64,000 bases of DNA from Streptomyces luteogriseus (GTDB lineage Bacteria; Actinomycetota; Actinomycetes; Streptomycetales; Streptomycetaceae), in contig NZ_JACHMS010000001.1 in the NCBI RefSeq assembly GCF_014205055.1, forward strand, positions 4,712,001 to 4,776,000, read 5' to 3'. Made by a program: the position numbers and the translations under genes. Under the pieces are notes generated by a model. It was given only the letters and a program-made list of their open reading frames with translations, made no database searches and was not told the origin of the DNA. Below, piece after piece: positions 55,460-61,672 of this stretch (position 1 is its first letter; each line of letters starts with the position of its first letter).

Positions 55460-57103
55460 TCAGCTCTCCGCCAGCAGCTCGTCCGCGTCCATGATCCGGT
55501 ACGCGTACCCCTGTTCCGCCAGGAACCGCTGGCGGTGGGCGGCGAAGTCCTGGTCGATGGTGTCCCGGGCGACCACCGAGTAGAAGTGCGCCTGGTGGCC
55601 GTCGGACTTGGGCCGCAGGACCCGGCCGAGGCGCTGGGCCTCCTCCTGCCGGGAGCCGAAGGTGCCCGAGACCTGGATGGCGACCGTCGCCTCCGGAAGG
55701 TCGATCGAGAAGTTCGCGACCTTGGACACGACGAGCACGCTGATCTCGCCCTCCCGGAAGGCGTCGAAGAGCTTCTCCCGCTGCGCGTTCGACGTCTCGC
55801 CCTTGATCACGGGCGCGCCCAGATGCTCCCCGAGCTCGTCGAGCTGGTCGATGTACTGGCCGATGACCAGGATCTGCTGCCCGGCGAAGCGGCGGACGAT
55901 GGCCTCCGTGACCTTGCGCTTGGTCGCGGTCGTCGCGCAGAAGCGGTACTTCTCCTCCGTCTCGGCCGTGGCGTACGCGAGCCGCTCGGCGTCCGTCAGA
56001 TTGACCCGGACCTCGACGCAGTCGGCGGGCGCGATGTAGCCCTGCGCCTCGATCTCCTTCCACGGCGCGTCGAACCGCTTGGGCCCGATCAGGGAGAACA
56101 CGTCGGACTCCCGGCCGTCCTCGCGCACCAGGGTGGCGGTCAGGCCGAGCCGCCGCCGGGCCTGGAGGTCGGCGGTGAACTTGAAGACCGGCGCGGGCAG
56201 CAGGTGCACCTCGTCGTAGACGATCAGGCCCCAGTCCCGTGAGTCGAACAGCTCCAGGTGCGGGTAGACGCCCTTCCGCCGGGTCGTCAGCACCTGGTAC
56301 GTGGCGATCGTGACGGGCCGGATCTCCTTCTTCGTCCCGCTGTACTCGCCGATCTCCTCCTCGGTGAGCGAGGTCCGCTTCACCAGCTCGTGCTTCCACT
56401 GCCGGGCGGAGACGGTGTTCGTGACGAGGATGAGGGTGGTCGACTTCGCCTGGGCCATCGACCCGGCCCCGACCAGCGTCTTCCCGGCGCCACAGGGCAG
56501 GACGACGACGCCCGAGCCGCCGTGCCAGAAGTTCTCCACGGCCTGCTTCTGGTACGGCCGCAGCGCCCAGCCGTCCTCGGCCAGCTCGATCTCGTGCGCC
56601 TCGCCGTCGACGTACCCGGCGAGGTCCTCGGCCGGCCAGCCCAGCTTCAGCAGCGTCTGCTTGATCTGCCCGCGCTCGGAAGGGTGCACGACGACCGTGT
56701 CCGGGTCGATGCGGGCCCCCACCAGCGGCGTGACCCGCTTCGATCTGAGGATCTCCTCCAGCACCGGGCGGTCGGTGGTGGTCAGCACCAGCCCGTGCGC
56801 CGGGTGCTTGGAGAGGGTGAGACGGCCGTAGCGGTCCATCGTCTCGGCGATGTCGACGAGCAGCGCGTGCGGCACGGGGTAGCGGCTGTACTGCACGAGC
56901 GCGTCCACGACCTGCTCGGCGTCGTGGCCCGCCGCGCGGGCGTTCCACAGGCCCAGCGGGGTGACGCGGTAGGTGTGGATGTGCTCCGGCGCCCGCTCCA
57001 GTTCCGCGAACGGGGCGATGGACCGGCGGCAGTCGTCGGCCTGCTCGTGGTCGACTTCCAGGAGCAGGGTCTTGTCGGACTGGACGATCAGCGGACCATT
57101 CAC
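55460..57103 (-). CDS. XPB/Ssl2-type DNA repair helicase
   Basis: 547 residues from GTG 57103 (VNGPLIVQSDKTLLLEVDHE). The N-terminal XPB-specific domain (about 1-165) contains GLVLTTTDRPVLEEILRSK. The SF2 core has Walker A LPCGAGKTLVGAG (about 205-217), VYDEVHLLPAP (DEVH box, about 294-304), LGLTATLVREDGRE (motif III, with the RED motif), and the C-terminal QEEAQRLGRVLRPK (motif VI). A 3'-5' helicase in bacterial nucleotide repair. A large XPB/Ssl2-N-like protein is encoded on the same strand about 2 kb away. Confidence 0.93.
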   Translation of the reverse strand: MNGPLIVQSDKTLLLEVDHEQADDCRRSIAPFAELERAPEHIHTYRVTPLGLWNARAAGHDAEQVVDALVQYSRYPVPHALLVDIAETMDRYGRLTLSKHPAHGLVLTTTDRPVLEEILRSKRVTPLVGARIDPDTVVVHPSERGQIKQTLLKLGWPAEDLAGYVDGEAHEIELAEDGWALRPYQKQAVENFWHGGSGVVVLPCGAGKTLVGAGSMAQAKSTTLILVTNTVSARQWKHELVKRTSLTEEEIGEYSGTKKEIRPVTIATYQVLTTRRKGVYPHLELFDSRDWGLIVYDEVHLLPAPVFKFTADLQARRRLGLTATLVREDGRESDVFSLIGPKRFDAPWKEIEAQGYIAPADCVEVRVNLTDAERLAYATAETEEKYRFCATTATKRKVTEAIVRRFAGQQILVIGQYIDQLDELGEHLGAPVIKGETSNAQREKLFDAFREGEISVLVVSKVANFSIDLPEATVAIQVSGTFGSRQEEAQRLGRVLRPKSDGHQAHFYSVVARDTIDQDFAAHRQRFLAEQGYAYRIMDADELLAES

Positions 57104-57284
57104 GCGCGGCACCCTTTCTGCGGCCGGAGGACTCGGACGGCTCGACAGCGCGACGCCTCGGCCAAACGTCCAGTGTGCCTGATCGACCGGGTCGGGTGGT
57201 GTGATCTGCGCGTCCGGTCGTACTGAATGCCTATTCATCCCAACGTGTGGTGTGAATTCAGTTTTTCCATCGCGGCCCCGAAGA

Positions 57285-58532
57285 ATGGCGAGGGTGCAGA
57301 ACCCGACGACCACCACGCTGGGCTACGCCCTGTTCGCCACCCGCTGGCTCCAGGCCCCGCTGTACTTCGGGCTGGTGGCCGCCCAGGGCGTCTACGTCTA
57401 CAAGTTCTTCAAGGAGCTGTGGACCTTAATCCTGATGTGCGTGAGCGGGCACGCCACCGAGACGTACGTGATGCTCGCCGTGCTCAAGCTGGTCGACGTC
57501 GTCATGATCGCCAACCTGCTGATCATGGTGATCGTCGGCGGCTACGAGACGTTCGTCTCGCGCATCGGCCTCCAGGGCCACCGTGACCAGCCCGAATGGC
57601 TCTCCCACGTCAACTCCAACGTACTGAAGGTCAAGCTCGCCACGGCGATCGTGGGCATCTCCTCCGTGCACCTGCTCCAGATGTTCGTGGACGTCCACCA
57701 CACGTCCCACCACGCCCTGTTGTGGGGGACGGTGATCCACATGGCGTTCATCGCGTCGGCGGCGATCCTCGCCTACATGTCGGGGCCGATGGTCGCCCAG
57801 ACGGACCGCGCCCACGGCGACCGTTCCCCGTCCGCACCGGCCGAGGCCGCCCGCCCCCAGGAGCACGGGCACACGGGCCGGCGGCAGGAGAAGCCGGACC
57901 CCGAGACCCCGGCCGCCCCGCCCGCCCTCCCGCGACAGCCCGAACCGGACGCCGACGCCGAGGCCCGCATCCGCGCCGCCGGGTTCCCCGCGCGCAAGCT
58001 GCTGGAGGACTTCGACGAGCAGCACCCCCGGGGCTTCGACCGGGAGGCCGTGGCGCGGCTCGGCAAGGCGGACTTCGTCACCGCCCGGCGCAACGTGGTC
58101 CTCGTCGGCCCGACCGGCACCGGCAAGACTCATCTGGCCGTCGCCCTGGGCGTCCGTGCGTGCCAGGCCGGGCACCGCGTGCTGTTCGCGACCGCCGCCG
58201 AGTGGGCTGCCCGGCTCGCGGACGCCCGGGCCGCCGGCCGGCTCGACGCGGAGCTGACCGCCCTCGACGATCACCCCCTCCTGATCGTCGACGAGGTCGG
58301 CTACACGCCCCTCGACCCGGCGACGGCGGGCCTGTTCTTCCAGCTCGTCGCCCACCGCTATGAACGGGCCTCGCTGATCGTCACCAGCGACCGGCCGCTC
58401 GGCCGCTGGGACGAGGTCTTCGGCCCGTCCGCCCCGGCGCTGACGGACCGGCTCGCCCATCACGCCGACGTCGTGCGGCTGGACGGGGACAGCTACCGGA
58501 CGCGCCGCGCTACTTCAACGTGGGCAGACTGA
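57285..58532 (+). CDS. UPF0114 (YqhA) membrane protein fused to an IstB-like ATPase
   Basis: 415 residues from ATG 57285. Residues about 1-175 are a full UPF0114 membrane domain with three or four helices (LFATRWLQAPLYFGLVAAQG, LVDVVMIANLLIMVIVGGYE, LATAIVGISSVHLLQMFVDV). A charged Pro-rich linker (175-235) leads to an IstB/DnaC-like AAA+ domain (about 235-410) with P-loop GPTGTGKTHLAVALG (near 275-289), LLIVDEVGYTPLDP (Walker B) and LTDRLAHHADVVRLDGDSYR. IstB proteins are the helper ATPases of IS21 transposases, but no istA, terminal repeats or target duplication are visible. The frame is open across the junction. UPF0114 function is unknown. Confidence 0.85.
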   Translation: MARVQNPTTTTLGYALFATRWLQAPLYFGLVAAQGVYVYKFFKELWTLILMCVSGHATETYVMLAVLKLVDVVMIANLLIMVIVGGYETFVSRIGLQGHRDQPEWLSHVNSNVLKVKLATAIVGISSVHLLQMFVDVHHTSHHALLWGTVIHMAFIASAAILAYMSGPMVAQTDRAHGDRSPSAPAEAARPQEHGHTGRRQEKPDPETPAAPPALPRQPEPDADAEARIRAAGFPARKLLEDFDEQHPRGFDREAVARLGKADFVTARRNVVLVGPTGTGKTHLAVALGVRACQAGHRVLFATAAEWAARLADARAAGRLDAELTALDDHPLLIVDEVGYTPLDPATAGLFFQLVAHRYERASLIVTSDRPLGRWDEVFGPSAPALTDRLAHHADVVRLDGDSYRTRRATSTWAD

Positions 58533-58698
58533 CGTTCTGGATCAACGGCCCTTCGACGGTGACCCCCTCGGTGACCAGCGGCTCCACGGCGGCGACCGGC
58601 AGGGGCAGGGGCAGCGCGGGGGCCGCTGCGGCGGAGGGCGCGAGCGCCCCCACGAGCGCGACGGCACAGAGGGCGGCGGCGGGCAGGTTCTCACGCAT
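58510..58698 (-). CDS. Small secreted peptide (62 aa)
   Basis: ATG 58698 (MRENLPAAALCAVALVGALA), with a signal peptide ending near PSAAAAPA and a mature part of about 35 residues rich in Leu/Pro/Val that ends GPLIQNVSLPTLK. No cysteines in the mature part. Its 3' end overlaps the 3' end of the UPF0114-IstB gene by 23 bp in convergent orientation. I do not recognise the family, though small Val/Leu-rich secreted proteins such as rodlins and chaplins are common in Streptomyces; it lacks the chaplin motif. Confidence 0.62.
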   Translation of the reverse strand: MRENLPAAALCAVALVGALAPSAAAAPALPLPLPVAAVEPLVTEGVTVEGPLIQNVSLPTLK

Positions 58699-58808
58699 GG
58701 GAACGGCAGGGCCTTTCGGAGACTGACATCGGGGGACGGCGACACCGCACCGCCGCGTGCCGGCCCGGGGGGACGCCCGGACCGGCACGCGGAGCGCGCG
58801 GAAGCGGA

Positions 58809-58940
58809 TCAGATCTGCGGTGTCTCCAGGACGAGGCCGGCGACGTCGATGCTCACCGCGGAGGCCGGGGTGGCGAGCCCCCCGAACGTCATCAGGGCGG
58901 CGGTGACGAGGACGGCGGCGACTCGGCGGACAGCGCGCAT
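58809..58940 (-). CDS. Very small secreted peptide (43 aa)
   Basis: ATG 58940 with a strong ribosome site (GAAAGGAAG, 8 nt). It encodes MRAVRRVAAVLVTAALMTFG, a typical signal peptide with cleavage after ATPASA, leaving a mature peptide of about 16 residues (VSIDVAGLVLETPQI). It lies 110 bp upstream of the 62-aa secreted gene on the same strand; the two may be co-transcribed. No family recognised. Confidence 0.6.
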   Translation of the reverse strand: MRAVRRVAAVLVTAALMTFGGLATPASAVSIDVAGLVLETPQI

Positions 58941-59131
58941 GCGCGGACTTCCTTTCGGCGGAGCTCACGAGGACACCCGGTGGCTGCCCCCGCGCGCACG
59001 ACGTGATGCGGCACGCCCGGGAAGGTCGCCCGAGCGTGGGAAATCCCCGGCGTGGCGTGCATGAACGCCCGCCTGCACCCGAACGGGTGACGGCCCCCGC
59101 GTCCTCGTCAGTGCGGTGGTCCGTGTGGTCG

Positions 59132-61672
59132 TCAGCCCGCGTCGTCGGCGAGCTCCGCCACCCCGGTGATCCGGTGCAGCGGATACGTGCGGACCTCGTC
59201 CGCGGTGTGGTCGTACGCCGTGACGAAGCCGCCCTCGACGCGGATCGGGGCGACGACCCGCTGGCTGGCGGCGCCCTCGGCGTTCACGTAGCCGATCCAC
59301 AGGGCCTCGCCGGTGAGGACGGCGGCCTGCATGGTGGCGAGGGTCTCGGCGGCACCGGTGCGGGGCAGCTCGCCGTTGGCCGCCGGGGCCGCACCGGGCT
59401 TGCGCGGGGTGGTGGAGGCGAGGTCGCCGGCTCGGATGGCGCGCAGCGCGGCCGCGAGGAGGGTGTCGTCGGGGACCGGCGGGCCGTCCGGGACCGGCTC
59501 GGGCGCGGTGCGCGGCGGGGTGCGGTGGGCCAGGGCGCGGGTGATCAGCACATCGCCCTCGGCGGACTCGGCGGCCGGTGCGAACCCCATCGACCGCAGG
59601 CCTTCCAGGAGCCCGGCCGGGTCGGTCTGGGCGGCCAGCACGGTCGGGGCGAGCCGGCGCAGCCCCAGCCCGGCGGCCCGCTTGTCGGCCAGGATCTCGC
59701 TGAGCATCGCGTCGTCGTCGCAGCGCACATACGCCGAGGCCGCGCCGACCCGCAGATGCCCGTGCCGGCGGGCCACGTCGTCGATCAGGTACGCGAGCGG
59801 CTGCGGTACCGGCGTGCGGGAGTGCGTGGCGAGGAAGGCGTGCAGGTCGGAGGCGGCCTGCCCGGCGTCCAGCGCCCGCCGCACCGAGCCGGGCGTGAAC
59901 CGGTAGACGGTCGCCCCGCCCTTGGACTCGACGTCCGCCAGCACGTCCAGCATGTCCGCGAGCGGCCGTTGCAGCGGGCCGGGCGCCACCGCCGTCAGGT
60001 CGGCCTGGAGCAGCACGTGGTCCAGCGGCTCGGGCAGCAGCGGCGCGAGCAGCCGGGCCGCGGCGGCGGAGGCAACGGCCTGTTCGGCGGGGGAGAGGGG
60101 AGCGAGCGGGGTGGTGCGGTGATGGTGGTGGACGGGCAGCTTGTCCCCCGGCCCGGCAGGTTCCGCTTCCGGGCCCGGCGTGGGAGCCGCGGGCGCGCCC
60201 AGCAGCGCCCGGCCCTGCGCCGACAGCGCGCCCCGGCCCGTGACACCCAGCAGCTCCGCCTCGGACAGCGCCCATTCGGCGAGCCGGCCGCGCAGATCGT
60301 CCTCGCGCCGGTCGCCGCGCAGGGGCCGCTCCCAGCGCAGCCGGGCCAGCACCGACCCGGCGGCGGGCGCGGCGCCCTCCGGTAGCCCGGCCAGCAGCGC
60401 CAGCACCCGGTGCCGTACCTCGGGCGCGGCCGAGCGGTCCAGGCCCGGCCCGAGCGCCGACAACGTACGGTCTTTGGCGTCCCGCCCGCCCACGAGACCG
60501 GCCGTGCGGGTCGCCGCCAGCCACGCCGTGACCAGCAGCGACCAGCGCTCGGCGGCGGGCAGTTCCAGCCACTCGTCGTACGCCGGGGTCGCCGCGTACC
60601 GCTCGTCGGCCTCGCCGTCCGAGGCGATCAGGCCCGCCGCGTACGCCAGCTCCACCCAGAACGCGGCGGCCGGCTCGGGCACGTCGAGCGCGACGGCGGT
60701 CCGCTTCAGGTCGCGCACGCTCAGCCCACCGGCCCGCAGCACCGCGGGCCCGCCCTCGTCCCAGTCCTTCAGCAGCTCCTCGACGGTCGCGAGCGCGGTG
60801 TACGCCTGCCCGGCCGCGGCACTGTCCACAACCTGTGGACGGTGAACGGCCGCCGTCTCGACCACCGGCGGCATCGGCTCGGGCGTCCGGTGCGCCAGGC
60901 CCCGCCGCAGATGCAGGGCGACCTCGCGCGGCAGGACGACCGTCCCGGGCGCGGTCGGCAGCAGCAGTCCGCGGTCCAGCAGCCAGCGCAGCCGGGGCGC
61001 CGGATCGGCCGTGACCTGCCCGTACGGCGGCCCCCACACCAGGCGCTCCAGCACGTCGAGGGAGTCGGCCGGGGCGTCGGCGAGCAGCGCGGCCATCCGG
61101 GCCCGGTCCGTGAACAGCCCGGCCAGGGCGGTCACCGCGGAGACCGAGTCGTGCGTCGAGGCGAGTCCCGCGGCCGTGACGATCTCCTGGATCCGGCCCG
61201 GGGACATTCCGGCGGTGGCCTCCTGGACCGTCGGGCCGAGCCCGGTCGGCGAGGGGTGCTGCGGCGAGGGCGCCAGCAGCTCACGCGCCGTGCGCACCAG
61301 TCGCAGCCGGTCGTCGTCACCCCACACCAGGGCCTGCTCGCGCAAAACGTCCAGGGCGTGCGGCAGCGCGGCGACGACGGCCGGGTCGGCGTCGTCCCCG
61401 GCCATGAGCCCGAGCAGTTCGCCGTACGCCGCCGGGTCCGCCGCCACGGCCAGTGCCTCCGCCGTCTGGAGCGCGAACCGGTCCAGCCGCTCCAGCGCCC
61501 GCACGACCGAGGCACGGGTGCCGGCCCGGGTCGCGAGCTGGGTGAGGTCGGTGGGGACGGGCGTGATGAGATCCGGGCGGCTGCGCAGGAGCGCGCCCAG
61601 CGAAGCGTCGCCCCGCGCGCGGAGCTCTTCCGCGAGGGAGCGGGGGGCCGGGGGCCTGTCCTCGGTGCTCAT
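59132..61672 (-). CDS. Large helicase-associated protein with XPB/Ssl2 N-terminal-like domain
   Basis: 846 residues from ATG 61672 (MSTEDRPPAPRSLAEELRAR); an ATG at 61681 adds three residues. No Walker motifs. The C-terminal region (about 500-690) contains DHVLLQADLTAVAPGPLQRP and TVYRFTPGSVRRALDAGQAA, the Helicase_C_3/XPB-N domain, and the end (about 770-845) has EALWIGYVNAEGAASQRVVA and VRTYPLHRITGVAEL, a WYL-like fold. The N-terminal half is a chain of winged-helix-like segments. It probably works with the XPB helicase in repair. The 190 bp upstream towards 58941 hold no gene. Confidence 0.85.
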   Translation of the reverse strand: MSTEDRPPAPRSLAEELRARGDASLGALLRSRPDLITPVPTDLTQLATRAGTRASVVRALERLDRFALQTAEALAVAADPAAYGELLGLMAGDDADPAVVAALPHALDVLREQALVWGDDDRLRLVRTARELLAPSPQHPSPTGLGPTVQEATAGMSPGRIQEIVTAAGLASTHDSVSAVTALAGLFTDRARMAALLADAPADSLDVLERLVWGPPYGQVTADPAPRLRWLLDRGLLLPTAPGTVVLPREVALHLRRGLAHRTPEPMPPVVETAAVHRPQVVDSAAAGQAYTALATVEELLKDWDEGGPAVLRAGGLSVRDLKRTAVALDVPEPAAAFWVELAYAAGLIASDGEADERYAATPAYDEWLELPAAERWSLLVTAWLAATRTAGLVGGRDAKDRTLSALGPGLDRSAAPEVRHRVLALLAGLPEGAAPAAGSVLARLRWERPLRGDRREDDLRGRLAEWALSEAELLGVTGRGALSAQGRALLGAPAAPTPGPEAEPAGPGDKLPVHHHHRTTPLAPLSPAEQAVASAAAARLLAPLLPEPLDHVLLQADLTAVAPGPLQRPLADMLDVLADVESKGGATVYRFTPGSVRRALDAGQAASDLHAFLATHSRTPVPQPLAYLIDDVARRHGHLRVGAASAYVRCDDDAMLSEILADKRAAGLGLRRLAPTVLAAQTDPAGLLEGLRSMGFAPAAESAEGDVLITRALAHRTPPRTAPEPVPDGPPVPDDTLLAAALRAIRAGDLASTTPRKPGAAPAANGELPRTGAAETLATMQAAVLTGEALWIGYVNAEGAASQRVVAPIRVEGGFVTAYDHTADEVRTYPLHRITGVAELADDAG

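Follow-up and report, generated by a model that had tools for sequence, protein, structure and literature searches.

The window analysed here, a stretch of 64,000 nucleotides from Streptomyces luteogriseus, is part of an 8.7 Mb genome. Within it, a single open reading frame encodes both a UPF0114 membrane domain and an IstB-type AAA+ ATPase, laid out as follows (coordinates are positions in the window):

57285..58532, plus strand: the UPF0114-IstB fusion ORF, 415 amino acids without an internal stop, both domains being present in 80/80 of the best relatives
57330..57686, plus strand: UPF0114 domain (PF03350), residues 16-134, with four predicted membrane helices
57801..57953, plus strand: variable linker, residues about 173-223, which ranges from 29 to 124 amino acids among 81 sequences
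57960..58511, plus strand: IstB-type AAA+ domain (PF01695), residues 226-409

The start codon is uncertain: the ATG at 57285 is used throughout, and a longer in-frame start (GTG at 57201) as well as later starts are possible.

The initial annotation read this frame as a complete UPF0114 protein joined in frame to an IstB ATPase without its N-terminal region, and the matches to Pfam and NCBIfam models within the one 415-residue frame bear this out. The UPF0114 profile is matched in full (PF03350, positions 1-117 of 117; E = 1.4e-35, 122.5 bits against a cut-off of 23.1), and the match to TIGR00645, the NCBIfam model of the same family, extends to residue 167 (173.8 bits against 144.4), so the protein holds the complete profile above both curated cut-offs. 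UPF0114/TIGR00645 proteins, such as E. coli YqhA, are usually small membrane proteins without further domains; in the fusion, the membrane domain is followed by a linker and then an ATPase. The match to the IstB_IS21 profile runs from position 50 to 235 of 238 (PF01695; E = 1.8e-55, 188.5 bits against 24.1), with the N-terminal part absent, and that to NF038214, the NCBIfam IstB model, begins at profile position 47 (214.4 bits against 200). Another NCBIfam model, NF005098, scores 271.4 bits, below its cut-off of 296. Where IstB has a helical dimerisation domain at its N-terminus (about 65 residues), the fusion has the linker and UPF0114, and comparison with a standalone IstB (L148) indicates that IstB sequence is retained only from just past the N-terminal domain onward.

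The predicted structure is informative mainly for the ATPase. An AlphaFold model (40 relatives) is mostly good there (blocks of pLDDT 83-96 within residues 261-400) and does poorly on UPF0114 and on the linker (under 50 at residues 167-220); a separate model of UPF0114 alone is also of low confidence (mean pLDDT 62.7). A fold search with the whole model, which barely probed the UPF0114 half, gave IstB as the best solved match (5bq5, Z 24.1, rmsd 2.3 over 184 residues; 8q3w, Z 24.1, rmsd 5.8 over 210 residues), followed by DnaC, DnaA, and DnaI at Z of about 16-19. No solved structure matched the UPF0114 half by sequence. Hydropathy peaks and the low-confidence model helices fit four membrane helices, the first of them weakly hydrophobic. 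The loop at residues 88-118 is more positively charged than those at 42-62 and 136-146, and loop charges and hydropathy together suggest a topology with both termini inside.

Distribution and origin of the fusion

A scan of genome contigs with the fusion protein found 303 relatives. The best 80 were examined, and all are from Streptomyces by title. Both domains lie in one uninterrupted frame in every one of these 80, a set that was chosen by similarity and is weakly biased to intact copies. Fusions in other genomes, for which the initial annotation had suggested a search, are thus plentiful, and the separate genes or frame break that it had named as possible contrary evidence were not seen among the 80. 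Scans with the UPF0114 model provide a sampling that does not select for the fusion. UPF0114 is present in 22 of 121 genomes of the genus, and 21 genomes of the genus have it among 147 of the order. The union comprises 41 UPF0114-bearing Streptomyces genomes (two of them, G000 and G091, common to both scans), in which the domain is fused in 37, cut by a contig end in two (G105 and G032), and standalone in two: G233, whose protein (L116) is 80% identical, and G012, whose protein (L110) is 57% identical. The counts of 37/41 and 80/80 are not independent, since many genomes are common to both. UPF0114 occurs once per genome where it is present, and as it was found in so few of the 121 genomes, the gene is dispensable for the genus.

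Outside the genus, UPF0114 was found in two genomes of the same order (L128 and L130) and in 16 others of the phylum, and within the stretch fetched, no ATPase lies behind it in either set (0/2 and 0/16). The model also matches in E. coli and one archaeon. None of 43 matching phage records covers 80% of the fusion query, and the fusion is in none of the best-scoring 5000 plasmid records. The open-access literature searched describes no UPF0114-IstB fusion, most subscription journals and protein databases being outside its scope. An artefact of assembly or annotation that joined two genes is an explanation to which no weight can be given, as all 80 of the best relatives (best 80 of 303) are fused in public assemblies, some in records titled complete. 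At the level of sequence, the domain fusion is confirmed as genuine.

Phylogenetic trees bear on how often it arose. The tree of AAA+ domains was made from 117 fused rows and 35 standalone IstBs, with exact duplicates and fragments under 140 amino acids left out; as the 117 rows include some genomes twice, 102 distinct fused domains were used for a recount. With either set, the fused domains form one clade with moderate support (0.887 for 117 rows, 0.847 for 102), and none of the 35 standalone IstBs falls inside it. The UPF0114 tree comprises 98 fused rows, amounting to 83 distinct cores, and seven standalone proteins. Here too the fused proteins form a clade of moderate support (0.825), with L116 as sister to all of them, then L128 and L130. 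The fused UPF0114 domain is 77-80% identical to its three nearest standalone relatives. Among standalone IstBs, the nearest fetched share 62-65% identity with the fused domain across some 185 residues, and annotated plasmid IstBs reach 65.8% among the matches listed. In the three loci tested, the ORF preceding the nearest IstBs is in each case an IS21 transposase.

Since standalone UPF0114 is the outgroup state, the IS21 IstB sequence was evidently appended, once, to a UPF0114 gene. The tree pattern fits a single fusion event within or just before Streptomyces, and L116 could represent a later loss if the moderate support misleads. The initial annotation had offered a choice between a domesticated IstB and an IstB fragment that landed on a host gene, and these turn out to be one story: a piece joined once and thereafter kept under purifying selection has been domesticated. 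This evolutionary part of the account, an IstB ATPase of single origin and since domesticated, is well supported by the sequences compared.

Constraint on the two domains

Selection was gauged by dN/dS (Nei-Gojobori) over pairs of 81 sequences, those with dS between 0.15 and 0.9 being kept and the rest dropped; the pairs are not independent of one another. The median is 0.091 for UPF0114 (3163 of 3240 pairs), 0.347 for the AAA+ domain (3194 pairs), and 1.096 for the linker (1444 pairs, limited by alignment). Of the neighbouring genes, an XPB helicase gene gives 0.069 and one of 849 codons 0.194, each from at most 40 sequences. The conservation of both domains and the linker was held out by the initial annotation as a check, and purifying selection is apparent for the two domains, at about 0.09 and 0.35, but not for the linker, which is at about 1.1 and varies from 29 to 124 amino acids. 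A P-x-Q motif considered for the linker is found in only 29 of the 81 sequences and is not claimed. The constraint on the AAA+ domain, weaker than that on UPF0114, would also suit an ATPase that is a modest accessory.

The residues of the nucleotide site were mapped to the fusion by alignment with IS5376 IstB, taking Tyr170, Asn199 (sensor I), and Arg237 (sensor II) with the roles given in the available part of PMC11208146, and Glu167 from the title of structure 8q4d:

58107..58130, plus strand: Walker A, residues 275-282 (GPTGTGKT); Lys281 in 102/102 distinct fused domains
58284..58304, plus strand: Walker B and switch tyrosine, residues 334-340 (IVDEVGY); Asp336 in 102/102, Glu337 in 100/102, Tyr340 in 100/102
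58389..58391, plus strand: sensor I position, residue 369, Asp here and Asn in IstB
58449..58499, plus strand: finger-like Arg389 (DRL) and sensor II Arg405 (SYR), both in 102/102 fused and 35/35 standalone domains

We infer that Arg389 is the finger. Degradation of the ATPase motifs, raised by the initial annotation as a possible sign against it, is not general among the 102 fused domains, but it did occur in one deep fused lineage, where L095 and L096 have Ala in place of Glu337. This version of the protein perhaps binds ATP and does not hydrolyse it, and the loss suggests that hydrolysis may not be needed there.

At the sensor I position, Asn has consistently given way to Asp, in an active site that is mostly intact elsewhere. 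The 102 distinct fused domains have Asp in 91 cases, Asn in nine, and Gly and Ser in one each, while Asn is found in 34 of the 35 standalone domains.

Chromosomal setting

In the window, the fusion has as neighbours the XPB helicase gene and, downstream, the 849-aa ORF, which has no NCBIfam match at 1e-10. The initial annotation had seen no transposase partner, and none was found: the neighbours are the two genes just named, and no IS21 transposase is found above cut-off in the genome, where the model gives three weak partial matches, the best at 41 bits against 160. From 57100 to 59150, there are only short imperfect repeats and no convincing terminal repeats or duplications, and inspection of 25 loci by eye gave no consistent IS ends and no inverted ends or duplications.

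XPB adjoins the fusion in 58 of the 80 loci. L047 and L064 have no XPB in the stretch fetched but do have the 849-aa gene downstream. An XPB homologue is present in all 23 of a set of hand-picked genomes, most of which lack the fusion, and in 16 of them, the 849-aa gene lies 99-1415 bp from XPB (flanks of at most 1500 bp). In the other seven (L202, L210, L211, L213, L214, L217, and L218), the sole match found lies within XPB and looks like chance. For loci that match on both sides, resemblance to the window mostly breaks off between 57091 and 57205 and restarts near 59131-59151. The loci without XPB represent many different neighbourhoods. Seven of these 22 (L063, L065, L069, L071, L080, L082, and L083) have downstream an Ohr peroxiredoxin and a MarR/OhrR-type regulator, names that come from the pair at L063.

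In comparisons of 15 pairs of loci, the pairs drawn from different contexts mostly show 81-91% identity over a segment that opens some 100 bp ahead of the start and closes at about the stop codon, and are unlike beyond it; three pairs, L080/L083, L065/L063, and L081/L084, have flanks in common as well. With likeness mostly confined to the ORF and its upstream region, it seems that the gene moved, or was transferred, along with the region that controls it. Clade 2 loci such as L068, L075, L076, L070, and L077 have the same aspect, that of a relocating promoter-plus-ORF unit, with homology over about 100 bp upstream and the ORF. A mobile gene cassette was considered and not adopted, as no inverted ends or duplications were seen and relocation by recombination explains the pattern equally well.

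The upstream region includes one conserved element:

57217..57284, plus strand: conserved 5' block upstream of the fusion, consisting of a palindrome-like ACTGAATGCCTATTCATCC, then GTGG..GAATTCAG

The block aligns in 23 sequences from both main clades and several chromosomal contexts, while L081 and L084 do not show it in the corresponding region. Within the window's own genome, no second copy of its first 29 bases occurs at up to three mismatches. It is possibly a promoter/operator region. The upstream palindrome in the window, TGAATGCCTATTCA, has what we take to be the form of an ARG box, and an ArgR-type operator was considered and rejected: the exact sequence is found in only 8 of 80 loci, and the wider conserved sequence differs. 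A scan of 57000-59150 for promoters (sigma-70 type only) and terminators found none, and two Rfam matches in 57100-58700, both below the gathering score, were taken as chance.

Two small predicted peptides that look secreted lie on the minus strand between the fusion and the 849-aa gene, one of 62 amino acids (58510-58698) and one of 43 (58812-58940). The longer one converges on the fusion, its stop end overlapping the fusion's 3' end, with an offset of -16 or -13 in 38 of the 51 loci that have a match.

What the fused protein may do

The AAA+ part of the fusion is like IS21 IstB. It is 32-36% identical to the IS5376 protein (5bq5, 8q3w, 8q4d; Z 22.8-24.1), and nearly all members of the fusion family share the catalytic residues of IstB. 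It differs in that the N-terminal dimerisation domain is lacking, that there is no IS21 transposase above cut-off and no clear IS ends, that it is placed behind a membrane protein, and that sensor I has gone from Asn to Asp in 91 of 102 fused domains. According to the available part of PMC11208146, IstB dimerises through its first 65 residues, and its ATPase module does not by itself suffice to engage IstA. With the N-terminal domain absent, the fusion should not be an IstA helper.

Two other kinds of AAA+ protein offer comparisons. The helicase loaders DnaC and DnaI have the same fold (3ecc, Z 18.6; 6qem, Z 17.5; 2w58, Z 16.4) at 17-21% identity, and the fusion reaches neither of their equivalog cut-offs (NF005931, 23.5 bits against 357; NF006505, 16.8 against 228). 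We know of no membrane anchor in DnaC or DnaI. FtsH is a membrane-anchored AAA+ protein, with a membrane domain and a cytoplasmic AAA+ domain in one chain, but the fusion has an AAA+ domain of the IstB/DnaC type, no protease domain, and UPF0114 as its membrane part. The AAA+ part of the fusion also matches a PADLOC model, PDLC02630 (DrmD of DISARM), at E = 9.5e-41; this model may include IstB sequences and give the DrmD name wrongly to ordinary IS21 helpers.

To our knowledge, no function has been established for UPF0114. PMC10991953 cites a B. subtilis YqhA, which is presumably an unrelated protein that bears the same name. The available parts of three reports concern proteins of the family: overexpression of E. 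coli yqhA led to growth in 6 mM H2O2 (PMC8228696), a strain evolved to tolerate inhibitors acquired the yqhA substitution W14L (PMC10991953), and a putative chloride-channel domain was noted in Buchnera YqhA (PMC3246468). Together with the Ohr neighbours, the yqhA reports hint at stress physiology, possibly with a link to peroxide.

The best explanation, whose chances we put at about even, is that the protein is a membrane-tethered, domesticated IstB ATPase, born once in Streptomyces, that drives, gates, or clusters its UPF0114 part. The evolutionary events rest on sequence: in the Streptomyces lineage, the AAA+ part of an IS21-family IstB was evidently joined once behind a complete UPF0114 gene. 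From there we infer a mechanism as follows. The four-helix UPF0114 domain would be embedded in the membrane, its C-terminus facing the cytoplasm, so that a flexible tether keeps the ATPase at the inner face. Having lost the IstB N-terminal domain, the protein would be expected neither to form the two-fold IstB decamer nor to grip IstA. The nucleotide site and the trans-acting arginine would permit neighbouring AAA+ domains to assemble in an ATP-dependent manner, and the binding and hydrolysis of ATP would in turn act on the UPF0114 part by driving, gating, or clustering it. The product would be a cellular ATP-dependent membrane device, not a transposition factor. We suggest only tentatively that the transposon-derived AAA+ domain is the engine of an ATP-driven membrane machine and that, once rid of the dimerisation domain, it is able to assemble into rings or spirals at the membrane.

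Perhaps, instead, UPF0114 serves mainly to anchor the ATPase, which would recruit a client protein of the cytoplasm to the membrane or remodel it there, behaving as a DnaC-like loader. This would require no function of UPF0114 beyond anchoring, and the nearest folds include, along with DnaA, the client-handling proteins IstB, DnaC, and DnaI. However, the constraint on UPF0114 (dN/dS of 0.09, with 71 positions conserved in at least 98% of the 98 fused rows and in 7/7 standalone proteins) exceeds what a mere anchor would need, and no single partner gene accompanies the fusion across contexts, so we regard a client adaptor as rather unlikely. Nor does it seem likely, to a hardly different degree, that the membrane ATPase still holds DNA, chromosomal or incoming, as IstB holds its target, in the absence of a transposase. 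The AAA+ core is kept, and according to the available part of PMC11208146, the AAA+ module of IstB binds duplex DNA by itself, albeit weakly (1.5 uM); full-length IstB binds 30-fold more tightly, partly by means of the N-terminal domain that the fusion lacks. The charge of the helices from beta-2 to Walker B speaks on both sides: clade 2 is roughly neutral to positive (+0.7, 21 distinct sequences), much as are nine of the nearest IstBs (+0.9), whereas clade 1, to which the window belongs, is acidic there, with a mean of -2.3 (76 distinct) against +2.0 for the 35 standalone IstBs. A general loss of DNA binding was considered from these charges and dropped, as the decrease is seen in clade 1 and in five deep sequences (-1.4) but not in clade 2.

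A further reading would make UPF0114 the working part and the IstB piece a harmless, slowly decaying remnant of read-through into an IS. The dN/dS of the AAA+ domain is indeed about four times that of UPF0114, L095 and L096 have lost the Walker B Glu, and the ATPase is absent in G233 (L116), a Streptomyces strain with a close UPF0114, and in the two other genomes of the order. A neutral tail of such age would nonetheless be expected to be frame-broken in some lineages, and no broken copy is found in the best 80 of 303 relatives, even if a set chosen by similarity is weakly biased to intact ones. Moreover, the dN/dS of the AAA+ domain (0.35) is well under 1 while that of the adjacent linker is near 1, and the Walker A Lys and both arginines are present in 102/102 fused domains. 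A passive remnant is therefore very improbable.

Transposases are known to become domesticated. Here it is a transposition helper ATPase that seems to have been repurposed, after losing exactly the domain that made it a helper, and it provides a natural case of an IstB/DnaC-type AAA+ domain without its N-terminal control domain. An ATPase attached to UPF0114/YqhA also makes the role of that family testable through point mutants of the ATPase. If the more tentative reading, that of an ATP-driven membrane machine, is true, the fusion could reveal UPF0114 to be a transporter or channel under the control of energy or nucleotides.
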